Part shown: piece by piece, positions 38,238 through 57,133 of the stretch
Layout of the letters: each line of letters opens with the position of its first letter
Numbering within the stretch: position 1 is the first letter of the stretch
Assembly: GCF_024623725.1 (NCBI RefSeq)
Contig: NZ_JANKHG010000017.1
Location: 535,265-599,264 of the forward strand
Origin: Limnobacter parvus
Lineage (GTDB): Bacteria > Pseudomonadota > Gammaproteobacteria > Burkholderiales > Burkholderiaceae_B
Length of the DNA: 64,000 nt
Reading direction: 5' to 3'
Notes under the pieces: model-generated
The model's database searches: none
The model's input: the letters and a program-made list of their open reading frames with translations, nothing else
Told to the model about the DNA's origin: nothing
Translations under genes and position numbers: made by a program

Positions 38238-39476
38238 ATGATCAAGATTCATTTTCCGACCCAATTCGGTACGCCATTGGCCACCAACGCCCTAAAGGTG
38301 ATGTTGTTGGGCAGCGGTGAGCTTGGCAAAGAAGTGATCATTGCATTTCAACGTCTGGGTGTAGAAGTAATCGCAGTGGATCGCTATGCGAACGCGCCTG
38401 GCCATCAGGTTGCTCATCGCTTTTATGTAATTGACATGACCAACCCCAATGCACTGAAAGCCTTGATTGCGCAAGAAAAACCGCACATTGTAGTGCCGGA
38501 AATTGAAGCGATTGCCACCCCTGCATTGAAAGAGCTTGAAGCCGATGGTGTGGTGCGTGTGGTGCCCACCGCCAACGCGGCTTGGCTAACCATGAACCGC
38601 GAAGGTATTCGCCGCCTTGCAGCGGAGGAATTGAAGCTGAGCTGTTCACACTATGCATTTGCAGACGACTTCGACACGTTGAAAGCGGCTGTGGAAAAAG
38701 GCATTGGTGGCAACAAGCCAGTGGGCTACCCCTGCATTATCAAGCCAGTGATGTCGTCTTCCGGCAAAGGCCAATCCAAGGTGGATGATTCCAGCGAACT
38801 GGAAGCCGCATGGAATTATGCAGGCAGTGCGGGTCGCGTGAATTCTGGCCGAGTCATTGTTGAATCTGTGGTTGAATTTGATTATGAAATTACCTTGCTG
38901 ACAGTGCGCAGCCGTTGCCCAAAAAGTGGCGCGATTGAAACCAGTTACTGTGAACCGGTGGGCCATATTCAGGTGAGCGGTGATTATGTGGAAAGTTGGC
39001 AGCCCCAGGCCATGAGCACGAAAGCGCTGGATGAAGCCAAAAAAATGTCGGATCGTGTAACCACGGCGCTGGGTGGAACGGGTTTGTTTGGCGTGGAAAT
39101 GTTCGTGAAAGGCGACGAGGTGTGGTTTTCTGAAGTTAGCCCCCGCCCGCACGACACCGGCATGGTGACGATGATTACTCAATGGCAAAACGAGTTTGAA
39201 TTGCATGCCCGCGCCATTTTGGGTTTGCCAGTGGACACCAGCCTGAAAACGCCGGGTGCCAGTGCGGTAATTTACGGTGGTATGGACAAGGAAGGCATTG
39301 CTTTTGAGGGCGTGGCCGATGCCTTGGCGGAACCGGGCACTGATGTGCGTTTGTTTGGCAAGCCTGAATCGTTTGTGAAGCGGCGCATGGGTGTGGCCTT
39401 GGCGCGCGATGCTGACGTGGATGAAGCACGAGCGAAAGCCAAGCGTGTTGCGGCGAAAGTAAAGCCGGTTGCTTGA
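38238..39476 (+). CDS. purT: Formate-dependent phosphoribosylglycinamide formyltransferase
   Basis: PurT uses ATP and formate to formylate glycinamide ribonucleotide, the folate-free alternative to PurN in purine synthesis. The 412-residue ATP-grasp enzyme has [11 protein letters not shown] (about 18-28), [15 protein letters not shown] (phosphate-binding loop), [13 protein letters not shown] and the metal-binding [15 protein letters not shown]. The C-terminus is slightly longer than in E. coli. It stands alone, followed by the gene-free structured region at 39477-39972. Confidence 0.97.
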
Positions 39477-39494
39477 ATGCGTTCGCGGAGACGC

Positions 39495-39667
39495 ATGCCA
39501 GTTTTCTATCTGGCATTTGTGAAGTCGCATCCCGCTTCATTAGTTGGCATCCGCGAAGTCGCATGCCCTCCTCCGCCTGAAAGTCTGTATTTCCCTTTTT
39601 GAAATTCACACTGACTCACATCGCTTGGCAAAACTGATGGCCAAGCAATGTGTCGGCTTGCAGCCGA
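39495..39667 (+). other. Gene-free structured region downstream of purT
   Basis: The 496-bp gap 39477-39972 has no convincing gene. Its first part holds three clean hairpins: ATGCCAG/CTGGCAT (39495-39501 with 39510-39516), GCTTGGC/GCCAAGC (39623-39629 with 39640-39646) and TCGGCT/AGCCGA with a TGC loop (39653-39667). A gaagtcgcat motif occurs at about 39521 and 39555, and gaagtcacat occurs near 55965 before the second copy of the dispersed element. The first hairpin may terminate purT. Short frames here lack family features. Confidence 0.5.
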
Positions 39668-39784
39668 ACGCGGCGTGTGAATTCAAACGGGCAGACTTTC
39701 TTGAAGGCGTAATGAGGGCAATGCGAACTTCGCGAATGCTGAAAACAGATCAGCGACTTGTTGTGTGCGCGAGAGGTTTGTGTG

Positions 39785-39953
39785 CTGCATCGCCTTGCCG
39801 AATTTAGCAAGGCTTCCCGGTTGATTCGCAGCGCGGGGCGATTGCGGAGCAATCGATGCGAAGACGCTTCTGCGTTTCGCATGCCCCAAGCCAGAACCAC
39901 TAAGCCGGAATCAGAAGACTTGCATAGGCGAGGTGATTCGGCATTCAAACCGC
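39785..39953. repeat. Dispersed two-hairpin intergenic element, copy A
   Basis: This segment aligns with 56023-56190, best in the core 39816-39898 (for example ttgattcgcagcg, tcgatgcgaagacgctt, gcgtttcgcat and gccagaa are shared). Two adjacent hairpins are seen. CGATTGC/GCAATCG with a GGA loop spans 39839-39855. ATGCGAA-g-ACGC/GCGT-TTCGCAT with a TTCT loop spans 39856-39882. It lies between purT and the convergent ybiT. It behaves like a REP-type element; I know no name for it. Confidence 0.75.
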
Positions 39954-39972
39954 CACACGCACCCCATCACCT

Positions 39973-41571
39973 TTATGCCAGACCCAAGCTCTCGCGGTAT
40001 TCTTCGTAGGTGCCCCGATAGTCCGTAATACCGTCTTCACGCATTTCAAAAATTCGCGTTGCAATGCCCGAAACAAACTGACGGTCATGCGACACCACAA
40101 ACACCGTGCCATCAAACTTTTCAATCGCGTACTGCAGCGATTCGATCGATTCCATGTCAAGGTGATTGGTGGGTTCATCCAACAGAAGCACGTTGTGGCG
40201 GCCCAGCATCAAGCGGCCAAACACCAAGCGGTTTTTTTCGCCACCGGAACACACTTTTACTTCTTTGGTAATTTCATCGTTGCTGAACAGCAAGCGCCCC
40301 AAAATGCCGCGAATAACCTGATCGTCATCGCCTTCTTGGGCAAAGCGTTCTGTCCATTCGCGCAGGCTTAGTTTGGTGTCAAATTCATCACTAACGTCTT
40401 GGGCCATGTAACCCAAGTCTGCGTTTTCTGACCACTTCACCTCGCCGTAGCTGGGCTCAAGCGCCTTGGCCAGTAGCTTAAGCAATGTGGTCTTGCCCAC
40501 GCCGTTGGCGCCCACAATGCCCACTTTGTCACCTGCTTCCACCATGATGGAAAAGTCTCGAATAACTTTGTTGTCAGCGTAGGCCAAGCTGACATTCTCA
40601 AGCTCCACCGCCAAACGGTGCATTTTCTTTTTCTGTTCAAAACGAATAAACGGATTCTGGCGTGAAGACGGCTTCAGGATCACGGTGTCTTGCTTGATTT
40701 TTTCAATCTGCTTCTGGCGTGACGTGGCTTGGCGAGCCTTTGACTTGTTCGCTGCAAATCGACGCACAAAGTCTTGCAGATCAGAAATACGTTCTTTGGC
40801 GCGGGCGTTTGAAGCCTGTGCGCGTTCGCGCGCCTGGGCCGCAGCCAACATGTAATCATCGTAATTGCCGGGTACCACTTGCAGCGTGCCGTAATCCAGG
40901 TCGGCCATGTGCGTGCACACCTCGTTCAGGAAGTGGCGGTCGTGGCTGATAATGATCATGGTGCTTTCGTACTGGTTCAGCACGTTTTCAAGCCAGGCAA
41001 TGGTGTTGATGTCGAGGTTGTTGGTGGGTTCGTCGAGCAACAACACATCGGGTTTGGAAAACAGAGCCTGTGCCAACAACACACGCAGTTTCCAGCCCGG
41101 TGCAATTTCGCTCATCAGGCCGTTGTGCTGTTCAGTCGGGATACCTGCGCCAAGCAGCAGTTCACCAGCACGTGATTCCGCCTCATAGCCACCAAATTCG
41201 GCATACACCGCTTCTAGGTCGGCGGCGCGCATGTAATCTTCATCGGTGGCTTCGGGGTTGGCGTACAGCGCATCACGTTCGGTCATTGCAGCCCACATTT
41301 CCTTGTGGCCCATCATTACCACGTCCAGCACACGGTGCTCTTCAAAAGCAAATTGGTCCTGGCTTAACTTACCCAGCCGTACATGGCGATCAATGTCAAT
41401 ATTGCCGCTGCTGGGTTCAAGGTCGCCACCCAGAATTTTCATGAATGTGGACTTGCCGCAGCCGTTCGCGCCAATCAAGCCATAGCGGTGACCGTCGCCG
41501 AATTTTGCGTTGATGTTTTCAAAAAGCGGCTTTGCGCCGAACTGCATCGTAATATTGACCGCGGTGAGCAT
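39973..41571 (-). CDS. ybiT: ABC-F family ATPase YbiT
   Basis: A 532-residue ribosome-associated ABC-F protein with two nucleotide-binding domains and no membrane part. Walker A motifs are [12 protein letters not shown] (domain 1) and [12 protein letters not shown] (domain 2). Walker B segments [11 protein letters not shown] and [14 protein letters not shown] are both present. Near-identity to YbiT over blocks such as [18 protein letters not shown] and [12 protein letters not shown] supports the symbol over EttA or Uup. The second signature reads CSGGEK where LSGGEK is usual. The family modulates translation at the E site. Confidence 0.94.
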
Positions 41572-48174: not shown

Positions 48175-48216
48175 TTATAAATACAATATATTTGCAGATC
48201 ATATAACAGCATAGAA

Positions 48217-50226
48217 TCAATGTAACTGTAGTAAGATTTTCTCAATACAGCTGTCTTTGGGGTGCATGCCATCGAAAAATTCTTCTGATGTACAGCCAAC
48301 TGTTTCAGGATTATATGAACCAATAATTTTTATCCCATGATTGCTCGAGATTTTCTTAAAGATTTCCTCAATCAATAAAAATGGCTGATTCTCGTTCTTC
48401 ATCTGCTTATAAAGTATTGGATGATATGGGGTTAGTACCAATACTACCTGTTGATGAGATGCAATTTTTTTAATTAATGCATCAAGTGTAATTTTCGCCT
48501 CGTCTGAATAAATGTAATTTGACATCCCGTAATTTAAAAAACTCAATGCACCCCTTTCAACTTCTACTTGAGACTTGTTCGCGTACAGAGTGTTATAAAC
48601 CCGACTGCCATCTTTTCTTACTTTGTCTATCAATGACGGAGAATCGTCCGATGATCTAATATCACTTATGTTAATCGAATTGTATAGATTTACAATTTTC
48701 TCATTAAACAACAGCGTCTCTTTTTCCGTATCAGGCTGATTTTCAGCTTTCATATTCAAATCGACCAAAGCCTTGTTGTATTCAGACCCAAGCGTCTTCC
48801 ACCTGTCTTGCCCGGAATTGGAATTGAAAATCCACGGATCTGCACCAATAAGAAATGTAGTGGGGTTGAACTTATCCGATGACATTTCCCAAATAGCGAC
48901 TATATCTTCAATTGATGCACCACTGACCGACAAATTAAGTGTTCGACTTTTCGTAAACTCACTTCCGATCTGCATGACTCTGGATGAACCAATGACGATC
49001 GTATGCGGATTTTCTGTCTCATACTTTATTCGAGCTTTGATGAATTTTCTTTCGTCGGAATTAGAGAAAAAAATCGCCGGGCTACGCGACAGTTCTTTCG
49101 CCATAGTATCTTCTGGCCGAAAGTCAATTTTTGCGGTGAATAATCCAAATAATACAAATAATCCACCTGTTAACGAAGAAAAAATAAAGATTGATTTTCG
49201 ATCTAAGTATAATTTTGAGCGAAACAGATTTTCCACATACTTCCAACTAAAATATGATAGAAAAAATACAAATAAAATTAGAAGTAATCGGAAGATGTAA
49301 TCAACTTGTGGGTTTACATATCGCACAAAAGCAAAGACTGGTTGATGCCAAAGATATGCGCTGTAGCTGACTAATCCGATTCCCACGAATATTTTATTGC
49401 CAATCAGGTTTGCGACAATTGTTCCTTGCCGCGCAAATACAATGATTAGTAGTGTGCCAATCGTTGGAACAAGTGCATAGAATCCGGGAAATGACGTGGC
49501 TTTGTTATAAAAAAATACAGAGTAAAAAATCAGTAGCAGACCAAACGATCCAGCAATTTCATGAAAATTGTGATTGGGTGTCTTGTCATCCATATTTGAC
49601 AAGTAGAAAGCCGCAAACGCACCGATTAATAGTTCCCATCCCCGCGTAAGCAATAAAAAGAAAGCAGCCGTAGGTTTTGCATACACACCCCATTGAGCTA
49701 AAGCGAGGCTCGCAATAAAGAAGACGCCGAGCAGTGTTAGTAACCTGCGCTTTCCACGCCGCCAAAAGAACATTAGAAACAATGGAAATAGAACGTAATA
49801 TTGCTCTTCTACAGCCAAACTCCAAGTGTGCAACAGTGGCTTTAGTTCGGCTGCTGTTTCAAAATATCCTCCAGCTCCCCAAAAGAAAAAATTTGAAACA
49901 AATAGAGGCACTGCCGCAAGGCTTTTTGAGAAGTTTGTCAGCTCCGCCGCCGGCAAAATGATCCATGCAAAAGGTATGCAGACGAGCATGACAAGAAACA
50001 TGACCGGCAAAATTCGTCGTGCTCGTCGCTCATAAAAATTAACGAGCGAAAATCTATTCGCGTCAAGCTCAGTAATGATGATGGTTGTAATCAAATAACC
50101 ACTGATTACAAAAAATACGTCTACTCCGACAAAGCCCCCACTAAAGGTTTCAAAACCAGCGTGGAACAATATGACCGGGAGAACAGCAAGCGCTCTAAGT
50201 CCGTCTATCTCTCGTCTGTAGTCCAT
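48217..50226 (-). CDS. OafA/PatB-type surface-glycan acyltransferase with SGNH-like domain
   Basis: A 669-residue membrane acyltransferase (acyltransferase-3 family). The N-terminus has the motif EIDGLRALAVLPVILFHAG and FVGVDVFFVISGYLI, followed by about ten membrane helices to about residue 360. The C-terminal region is SGNH-like, with IVIGSSRVMQIG as a possible block I and a late DGMHP with Asp/His. Such proteins O-acetylate LPS O-antigen or peptidoglycan. The gene is visibly richer in A and T than its neighbours, suggesting transfer. It converges on the GH1-RmlD gene. Confidence 0.9.
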   Translation of the reverse strand: MDYRREIDGLRALAVLPVILFHAGFETFSGGFVGVDVFFVISGYLITTIIITELDANRFSLVNFYERRARRILPVMFLVMLVCIPFAWIILPAAELTNFSKSLAAVPLFVSNFFFWGAGGYFETAAELKPLLHTWSLAVEEQYYVLFPLFLMFFWRRGKRRLLTLLGVFFIASLALAQWGVYAKPTAAFFLLLTRGWELLIGAFAAFYLSNMDDKTPNHNFHEIAGSFGLLLIFYSVFFYNKATSFPGFYALVPTIGTLLIIVFARQGTIVANLIGNKIFVGIGLVSYSAYLWHQPVFAFVRYVNPQVDYIFRLLLILFVFFLSYFSWKYVENLFRSKLYLDRKSIFIFSSLTGGLFVLFGLFTAKIDFRPEDTMAKELSRSPAIFFSNSDERKFIKARIKYETENPHTIVIGSSRVMQIGSEFTKSRTLNLSVSGASIEDIVAIWEMSSDKFNPTTFLIGADPWIFNSNSGQDRWKTLGSEYNKALVDLNMKAENQPDTEKETLLFNEKIVNLYNSINISDIRSSDDSPSLIDKVRKDGSRVYNTLYANKSQVEVERGALSFLNYGMSNYIYSDEAKITLDALIKKIASHQQVVLVLTPYHPILYKQMKNENQPFLLIEEIFKKISSNHGIKIIGSYNPETVGCTSEEFFDGMHPKDSCIEKILLQLH

Positions 50227-50347
50227 GCTGTGAGTGCTTTACGCGCTATGTCAATAAACAATTCAATCTGCAGATTCGCAACGGTCCGCCAGCGTGGAAA
50301 TTGTTATGGTGATGTTTCTTCTACTTGGAGGACGCGTCCCCTATTTC

Positions 50348-55497: not shown

Positions 55498-55947
55498 ATG
55501 AGCATTATTGACAACAAAAAAGCAGGTTTTGATTACTTCATTGAAGAGAAGTACGAAGCAGGAATTGCATTGGAAGGCTGGGAAGTCAAATCAATTCGCG
55601 ATGGCCGCGTGCAAATCAAGGAAAGTCACATTGTGGTTCGCAATGGGGAATTGTGGCTTTTGAATTGCCACATTTCACCGTTGACCAGCGCGTCGACACA
55701 TGTGAACCCAGTGAACACCCGCACTCGCAAGTTGTTAATGCACAAAAAAGAAATCAACCGCTTGATCGGTAAGGTGGAGCAAAAGGGTTACTCGCTGGTG
55801 CCATTGAACATGCATTTCAAAAATGGCCGGGTAAAAGTCGACATGGCGCTGGCCAAGGGCAAGAAGCAACATGACAAGCGCGACACGCTGAAAGACAAAG
55901 ACTGGAAACGAGAGCAGGAACGGTTGATGAAGATTCACCGAACCTGA
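55498..55947 (+). CDS. smpB: SsrA-binding protein
   Basis: SmpB binds tmRNA and delivers it to stalled ribosomes in trans-translation. The 149-residue product begins [22 protein letters not shown] and has [18 protein letters not shown] and the basic C-terminal tail ([21 protein letters not shown], then ERLMKIHRT) that occupies the mRNA channel. Length is normal. No ssrA gene was found in this window. It is followed by the second copy of the dispersed hairpin element. Confidence 0.97.
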
Positions 55948-56022
55948 ATTTTGCTGGTGATTGCGAAGTCACATCGGGTTCAGCTTGCAAGATGCTGCAG
56001 ATTGTGGGGGTTTGCAGCAGCG

Positions 56023-56190
56023 TTGCATCATTTTGCCGATTCAGGATCAAGTCGCCCGGTTTGATTCGCAGCGAAGGGCGACCTGCAAGGTCGATGCGAA
56101 GACGCTTTGGCGTTTCGCATTCCCTGAGCCAGAATCTAAAATGGGGAATTCGACTTGATCAAGGCGAAATGATGTACGCAATGCAAAGCC
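56023..56190. repeat. Dispersed two-hairpin intergenic element, copy B
   Basis: Second copy of the element at 39785-39953. Hairpin 1 is CGACCT/AGGTCG with a GCA loop (56079-56093). Hairpin 2 is ATGCGAA-g-ACGC/GCGT-TTCGCAT with a TTTG loop (56094-56120). Hairpin 1 differs from copy A at three stem positions, but all three pairs are maintained. A further 7-bp stem, TGCTGCA/TGCAGCA (55993-55999 with 56013-56019), lies just upstream. The element fills the 280-bp gap between smpB and the convergent stomatin gene; no gene is seen there. Confidence 0.75.
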
Positions 56191-56227
56191 AATAGCAAAA
56201 CTCGCCTCTCACTTGTCAAATCTAATC

Positions 56228-57133
56228 TCATTTCCCTTGCTTCACCACCTGCATGGCTGCAGCAACCATCGATCCCATGTTCGACAAATCACCAGGCAGA
56301 ATCAGCGTATTGCCCACCTTGGCTACACCCGAGAACGCTTCAATGTACTGCTCGGCGACTTTCAGGTTAACCGCTTCCATGCCGCCTGGCTCGGCAACAG
56401 CTGCTGCAATTTTACGCAAAGCATCTGCCGTGGCTTCTGCGATTTCTTTAATCGCACCAGCTTCACCTTGTGCACGATTAATCGCGGCGATCCGGTCGCC
56501 TTCAGAACGCGCAATCGAGGATTCCCGCTCGCCATTGGCAATGTTGATTTGTTCCTGCTTGCGTCCTTCAGAGGCAGCGATCAGCGCTCGCTTTTCACGT
56601 TCGGCCGTAATTTGAGCCTGCATTGACAGTAAAATCTCACGAGGCGGAGTCAAGTCTTTGATTTCATAGCGTAATACCTTGACTCCCCAGTTCAGTGCGG
56701 CTTCATCAAGCGCTTGAACAATTGCAGCGTTGATCAGGTCGCGTTCTTCAAAGGTCTTGTCCAGTTCCATGCGGCCGATAATTGAACGCAAGGTGGTCTG
56801 GGCCAATTGGGTAATCGCGCTGATGTAGTCGCTGGACCCATAACTGGCCCTCATGGCGTCGGTCACCTGAAAATACAAAATACCATCCACTTGCAACTGA
56901 GTGTTGTCTTTGGTGATACACACCTGGCTGGGTACATCCAGCGGAATTTCCTTCAGAGAATGTTTGTATGAAACCCTTTCAATAAATGGCACCAAAAAAT
57001 TCAGGCCAGCTTGCAAGGTTCGATCGTACTTGCCCAAACGCTCAACTACCCAAGCACTTTGTTGGGGAACAATGCGCAATGCCTGACTGACAAATACGAT
57101 CGCCAGAATCAATATAACAATTGATACTTCCAT
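56228..57133 (-). CDS. SPFH/stomatin-like membrane protein (QmcA type)
   Basis: A 301-residue band-7 protein. One N-terminal membrane helix (VSIVILILAIVFVSQAL) is followed by the SPFH domain (about 20-190: VPQQSAWVVERLGKYDRTLQ, GLNFLVPFIERV, RMELDKTFEERD). A long alanine/glutamate-rich helix follows (AEREKRALIAASEGRKQEQ). Such proteins form oligomeric cages around membrane proteases or organise lipid domains. It lies 45 nt downstream of an NfeD-like gene, the classic stomatin operon partner. The QmcA assignment rests on layout. Confidence 0.93.
   Translation of the reverse strand: MEVSIVILILAIVFVSQALRIVPQQSAWVVERLGKYDRTLQAGLNFLVPFIERVSYKHSLKEIPLDVPSQVCITKDNTQLQVDGILYFQVTDAMRASYGSSDYISAITQLAQTTLRSIIGRMELDKTFEERDLINAAIVQALDEAALNWGVKVLRYEIKDLTPPREILLSMQAQITAEREKRALIAASEGRKQEQINIANGERESSIARSEGDRIAAINRAQGEAGAIKEIAEATADALRKIAAAVAEPGGMEAVNLKVAEQYIEAFSGVAKVGNTLILPGDLSNMGSMVAAAMQVVKQGK

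Follow-up and report, generated by a model that had tools for sequence, protein, structure and literature searches.

ERIC, YPAL, REPIN and Correia elements have been known for decades, and it is still debated whether such repeats are parasites or working parts of their genomes. ERIC (IRU, RU-1) is a 127 bp element that is co-transcribed with its neighbours and has a reported effect on mRNA stability, and the 168 bp YPAL/RU-2 of Yersinia possibly influences the stability of upstream transcripts (PMC2229807). Transcripts of the Correia/NEMIS elements of Neisseria are cut by RNase III (PMC2229807, PMC10969869) and the elements themselves can invert (PMC10969869). REPINs, the REP doublets of P. 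fluorescens SBW25, occur in inverted pairs and are linked to RAYTs (PMC3116915). A survey that covered 40 genomes lists, in the excerpt considered here, 92 families of stem-loop sequences (PMC2267715). Here we describe two homologous families of Y-shaped palindromes from Limnobacter parvus. Their identity as a structured repeat superfamily is well supported; their function we infer.

The analysed window is a stretch of 64,000 nucleotides from the L. parvus genome (G000), a 3.18 Mb draft of 25 contigs. An initial annotation had aligned two intergenic stretches of this window, hereafter copy A and copy B, and they indeed share 76% identity over 115 bp (E 4e-15, alignment within the window). The limits it gave, 39785-39953 and 56023-56190, were in the right place and slightly short of the elements with their outer stems (39775-39956 and 56012-56191). 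Hairpin 1 had been read as CGATTGC/GCAATCG in copy A and CGACCT/AGGTCG in copy B, with three pairs altered on both arms and complementarity kept, and hairpin 2 as 11 pairs with a loop that goes from TTCT to TTTG; both descriptions were accurate, hairpin 2 having in addition one bulged base in either copy. The placement of both copies between convergent genes was also correct, the neighbours being purT(+)/ABC-F(-) and smpB(+)/SPFH-type(-). Genes near the elements were called with a simple hexamer-based finder, the four neighbours in the window being confirmed by NCBIfam (one at family level); the stop codon of the ABC-F ATPase gene is 16 nt from copy A. What had been overlooked beside the two hairpins is the long outer stem, as well as a second element at 39547-39739 (Table 1). 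Copies A and B fold end to end into a Y with a long outer stem, asymmetric internal loops and a three-way junction, at which hairpins 1 and 2 stand side by side. None of 200 shuffles matched the fold stability of either copy. Given these whole-element fold scores and a covariance model that finds 18 copies in the genome, both the similarity and the folding of copies A and B are far beyond chance.

Table 1. Features of the two loci in the window (R1 and R2, covariance models of modules I and II; z, fold stability score)
Feature	Position	Strand	Evidence or remark
purT, convergent neighbour of the pair with copy A	38238..39476	+	NCBIfam TIGR01142, 551.8 bits, above cut-off
Composite II-I pair, outward-facing	39547..39956	.	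Takes up the greater part of the 496 bp separating purT from the ABC-F gene
Module II partner of copy A	39547..39739	sense minus	R2 155.7 bits on minus; fold z -11.9
Module I copy A, Y-shaped palindrome	39775..39956	sense +	R1 172.9 bits; fold z -5.2
Hairpin 1 of copy A	39839..39855	+	Variable covarying stem CGATTGC/GCAATCG
Hairpin 2 of copy A	39856..39882	+	Conserved ATGCGAAGACGC..GCGTTTCGCAT, 11 pairs, loop TTCT
ABC-F ATPase, convergent neighbour of the pair with copy A	39973..41571	-	NCBIfam NF011646, 929 bits
smpB, convergent neighbour of copy B	55498..55947	+	NCBIfam NF003843, 220 bits
Module I copy B, solo	56012..56191	+	Subfamily 2 outer stem; R1 136.1 bits; fold z -8.4
Hairpin 1 of copy B	56079..56093	+	CGACCT/AGGTCG
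Hairpin 2 of copy B	56094..56120	+	11 pairs, loop TTTG
SPFH/HflK-like protein, convergent neighbour of copy B	56228..57133	-	HflK model 94 bits, below cut-off, family level

A DNA search with copy A reached about 20 places in the L. parvus genome. The covariance model of module I, built from 34 copies, was used for the scan of own and related genomes that the initial annotation had proposed, and recovered 18 copies in L. parvus, one of them internally deleted, and further copies in the genus. The many intergenic copies with compensatory changes support its suggestion of a dispersed structured family. The element immediately to the left of copy A is likewise a dispersed palindrome, folded on the minus strand and matched by its core model at 39574-39709. 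This module II has about 56 copies in the genome (58 model rows, two being opposite-strand repeats of the same places), which brings the total to about 74 modules of 140-190 bp (models of 137-182 positions). Since the module II model, built opposite to the window strand, also recognises module I, namely copy B on plus with 27.4 bits (E 4e-6) and a further copy with 40.6 bits, modules I and II form one superfamily with one shared orientation.

In a collection that represents 84,980 species by a single genome apiece, an exact pattern taken from hairpin 2 occurred at 57 loci. The records concerned all bear the name Limnobacter or are MAGs whose names go no further than Burkholderiales or Gammaproteobacteria. 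By DNA search, module I is present in ten of the 12 genus genomes searched, L. parvus included, and in none of eight genomes from other families of the order. Among 150 genomes of the order, the models of both modules matched only in two, both Limnobacter. Module II numbers 22-51 copies in five of the seven other genus members searched, is scarce in G004 (3 copies) and stands at zero in the incomplete G002. G004 is rated 100% complete and has about one module I besides its three of module II, which makes it useful for tracing a mobilising gene by subtraction. Rfam gave no match at the gathering score nor up to E=1, and plasmid or phage carriage was rejected as no module copy was found in PLSDB, INPHARED or, by exact pattern, IMG/VR. 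In the titles and abstract openings of the Limnobacter genome literature, a search that was not exhaustive, such repeats are undescribed.

We claim membership of the modules in none of YPAL, ERIC, Correia or REPIN. Like REPINs, they are dispersed extragenic palindromes, mostly in inverted pairs with a spacer and also as singlets, with hairpins predicted in ssDNA or mRNA (PMC3116915). The REP-like reading of the initial annotation holds for this inverted pairing and fails in the strict sense, on unit size and RAYT association: REPs measure about 20 bp, whereas the modules are longer (140-190 bp), Y-shaped and equipped with hypervariable covarying stems. The search for a RAYT-type transposase that it had suggested was negative, Y1/RAYT (PF01797) being absent from the L. 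parvus genome and, among 14 further Limnobacter genomes that were searched, from 13, and a RAYT-mobilised REP was rejected on the lack of a Y1 transposase in L. parvus. By eye, the GTAG/CGTC tag of the 20-40 bp REP unit was not seen at the aligned module ends. YPAL is similar in size, in being palindromic, intergenic and not A+T-rich, and in having empty and filled sites (PMC2229807), but Limnobacter has two related modules in outward pairs with a strong 3'-end and convergent location, and no target duplication was seen; YPAL is set apart by description. The same applies to ERIC, also an imperfect intergenic palindrome (PMC2229807), which has TA ends, a target duplication, a single long hairpin and other hosts; a paired arrangement is not mentioned for it in the excerpt of PMC2229807 considered. 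Correia elements are likewise palindromic mobile repeats capable of inversion, but are found mostly upstream of genes, may contain promoters, and differ in their TA ends and target duplication. The stem-loop families resemble the modules as intergenic repeats with a common predicted RNA structure, some being double hairpins, but in the excerpt of that survey the beta-proteobacteria are Bordetella and Neisseria, not Limnobacter, and outward pairing is not mentioned (PMC2267715).

Predicted pairs are retained in 95.1% of the cells of the module I alignment and in 95.2% of those of module II, with double changes in 30 of 54 and 25 of 38 pairs, respectively. Double-changed cells numbered 199 in module I (64.7 +/- 6.6 when shuffled) and 79 in module II (15.3 +/- 3.2), values that none of 500 shuffles reached in either case; these shuffles leave relatedness uncorrected. 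Controls in which partners were slid by 1-3 columns do correct for relatedness, and they brought the covariation score of module I down from 0.333 to no more than 0.075 and that of module II from 0.301 to no more than 0.094. Covariation thus exceeds both shuffled and slid controls in both modules, as for a structured RNA, the figures being somewhat flattered because the structures derive from the same alignments. At orthologous loci, compared as pairs of high-identity copies with orthology judged mainly from the flanks, 16 pairs had changed on both sides against 2 expected, and 12 of these still pair; one orthologous change swaps T.G for G.T. There, 4.4% of paired and 11.8% of unpaired sites had changed, the latter 2.7 times as often.

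Mismatches were counted upon Watson-Crick-only folding of both strands, which treats G.T and A.C alike; as copies share ancestry, the counts that follow are not independent. Module I representatives show G.T to A.C at 49:16 on the plus strand, and module II shows 16:56 on the window strand. Since A.C exceeds G.T there, the sense strand of module II is minus, the same strand on which it is homologous to module I. Split by gene context, module I has a clear bias between convergent genes (79:30) and a ratio of 8:1 when oriented like the tandem genes around it, but a weak bias of 23:16 when both genes are antisense to it. The excess of G.T over A.C points to selection at the RNA level, RNA tolerating G.U but not A.C, and the split by context agrees with selection acting on RNA transcribed from the flanking genes. 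Together with the compensatory changes at orthologous loci, the asymmetry favours the structured-RNA reading that had been proposed.

The 48 sites of the L. parvus genome consist of 26 inverted pairs and 22 singles. All 26 close pairs (14 II-II and 12 I-II, spacers of 45-204 bp) are inverted with their sense strands outward, the inverted pairing known from REP/REPIN, and module I partners elsewhere in the genus, read by eye, have the same outward orientation. Thirty-five sites are convergent, 12 tandem and one divergent. Other gaps in the module-holding loci and the window are convergent in 12 of 151 cases (Fisher p 3e-18 vs module sites) and, at lengths of at least 100 bp, in 1 of 41 (p 9e-13), the compared loci having been chosen for holding modules, so that the module share among all long convergent gaps is not derivable from them. 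In tandem gaps, paired modules have I or IIb beside the stop codon of the upstream gene (subtypes IIa and IIb being told apart by score only).

Orthologous sites show turnover. Between purT and the ABC-F gene, a II-I pair occurs in both L. parvus and G009, the I module belonging to a different subfamily in each; a solo I lies on plus in G007, and in G005 and G161 module I is inverted in place. The L. parvus and G005 loci align over 189 bp (91.5% identity) only after reversal, the flanks being collinear. Most of the element is lost in G011, the gaps of G006, G160 and G162 are empty and 12-19 bp long, and the 40-bp gap of G004 contains a GC hairpin that resembles an ordinary terminator. Seven relatives lack the element at the smpB locus, where their gaps measure 16-26 bp. 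As some orthologous convergent gene pairs thus have 12-26 bp gaps devoid of it, no single site is essential, and as copies invert in place, convergent gaps do not demand a strict orientation. The in-place inversion between species, with collinear flanks, was noted at the purT/ABC-F loci L158, L159 and L161. Some relatives carry 0.9-1.4 kb of extra sequence at the orthologous smpB locus (L169, L174, L175, L176, L177), so that this convergent slot behaves as an insertion hot spot.

Copy B and the copy at C18:104618-104797 are 92% identical exactly over the palindrome and have unrelated flanks; because identity ends exactly with the palindrome, the latter is the duplicating unit. The match between paralogues L134 and L136 spans precisely the stretch from GGTTTGCAG to GCCA, with unrelated flanks, as with the terminal inverted repeats and defined ends of a MITE. 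Matching flanks at 2-9 bp were not in excess over expectation, so a classical MITE with target duplication was rejected; old copies may have lost the duplication. In G006:C46 and G007:C1, where outward modules stand far apart, an orthologous MFS transporter gene lies between them, and in G000:C8 two small genes do; in none of the three was a transposase, and thus a candidate for an autonomous parent, seen by eye.

The modules might be purely selfish MITE- or REPIN-like elements whose complementarity is kept for mobility as DNA hairpins and which survive between convergent genes, where insertion is least harmful; we consider this possible though on balance unlikely. Duplication of a unit that ends exactly with the palindrome, REPIN-like inverted pairs, orthologous sites that are empty, filled, inverted or partly deleted, and divergent gaps nearly free of modules all agree with it, and the convergent location could reflect tolerance rather than use. 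However, compensatory changes go on at fixed orthologous loci, and the G.T bias follows the own strand of each module and is opposite within a pair, unlike a single mobilised strand; the missing Y1 transposase and target duplication also count against it. Upkeep at the DNA level, the arms being matched by template-switch (quasipalindrome) correction at the fork, or kept for a cruciform or protein binding, with no RNA role, is quite improbable. In-place inversion and arm-to-arm deletion do show that arms recombine or switch, and the outermost arms of some copies are wholly different and still complementary, but correction on two strands predicts equal G.T and A.C whereas the observed skew is opposite in I and II. 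Moreover, the orthologous T.G to G.T swap is not expected from correction, and the internal loops are conserved.

The initial annotation had also suggested terminators, and strong hairpins between convergent genes would suit ordinary bidirectional intrinsic ones. Of the convergent gene ends, 8 of 50 with a module have a T-tract hairpin before it, and 6 of 12 without a module have one, but a module shortens the stretch searched and so confounds this comparison; replacement of terminators by modules is suggestive at best. As a T-tract is found at the 3' end of only 1 of 76 copies, the modules are not ordinary intrinsic terminators; several sit behind a perfect conventional terminator, and we give this explanation a very slim chance. 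Hardly to be expected, too, are small RNA genes in their own right, with a promoter between paired modules that drives outward transcription. The sense strands do point outward from the spacer, but solo copies have no common upstream sequence in the alignment and spacers are short and variable, on which ground an sRNA gene with its own promoter was rejected.

The modules are best read as a new REPIN/YPAL-like structured repeat superfamily that is retained as folded RNA at gene 3' ends. Three observations fit such a folded 3'-end element: its place at gene ends, mismatches biased in the manner of RNA, and compensatory change at loci that are fixed. For the full sequence of events, in which Limnobacter-specific Y-shaped modules spread in a REPIN- or MITE-like manner and were then retained as folded RNA at gene 3' ends, we hold the chances to be about even. 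Transcription from a flanking gene would enter the gap, and the sense module would fold into a Y just before the opposing gene. The folded Y would mark and protect the 3' end of the transcript, probably as a barrier to 3'-5' exonucleases, and may limit harmful read-through or antisense transcription. A possible role as RNA stabiliser or gene-boundary element is the function we prefer. More doubtful is a new class of bipartite, genus-specific boundary element, in which two homologous Y-shaped RNA modules in strictly outward pairs, spread by a non-RAYT enzyme, would be retained to insulate the transcription of convergent genes. If the boundary role is true, Limnobacter would handle convergent transcription genome-wide without T-tract terminators. 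Compensatory change at fixed loci, opposite polarity within pairs and convergent crowding make the question of parasite or working part directly testable, and selection on structure and strand is measurable in this genus, which has diverged copies in sufficient number at loci both shared and not shared.

Some further sequences were noted. Between convergent genes at window positions 48175-50347 lie 2.2 kb without a called gene, to which the module models give no match. At L254 2109-3084 of L. parvus, two small genes lie between widely spaced modules, the first with a DCSGFV motif that we take to be reminiscent of NlpC/P60 amidases. Tandem 7-bp units (AAGCACC or AATCACC) follow just downstream of module I at L003, L083 and L106, and tandem 7-bp repeats were found by pattern in 4 of 76 copies. 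Short repeated units of the type GGCATnYGCGAAGTCGCATGCCC flank the II-I pair at window positions 39479-39580, with a small hairpin near 39493-39523; GCATTCGCGAAGT-like motifs also occur beside other module copies, and the short repeats at 39479-39580 are possibly a third, REP-sized repeat family.
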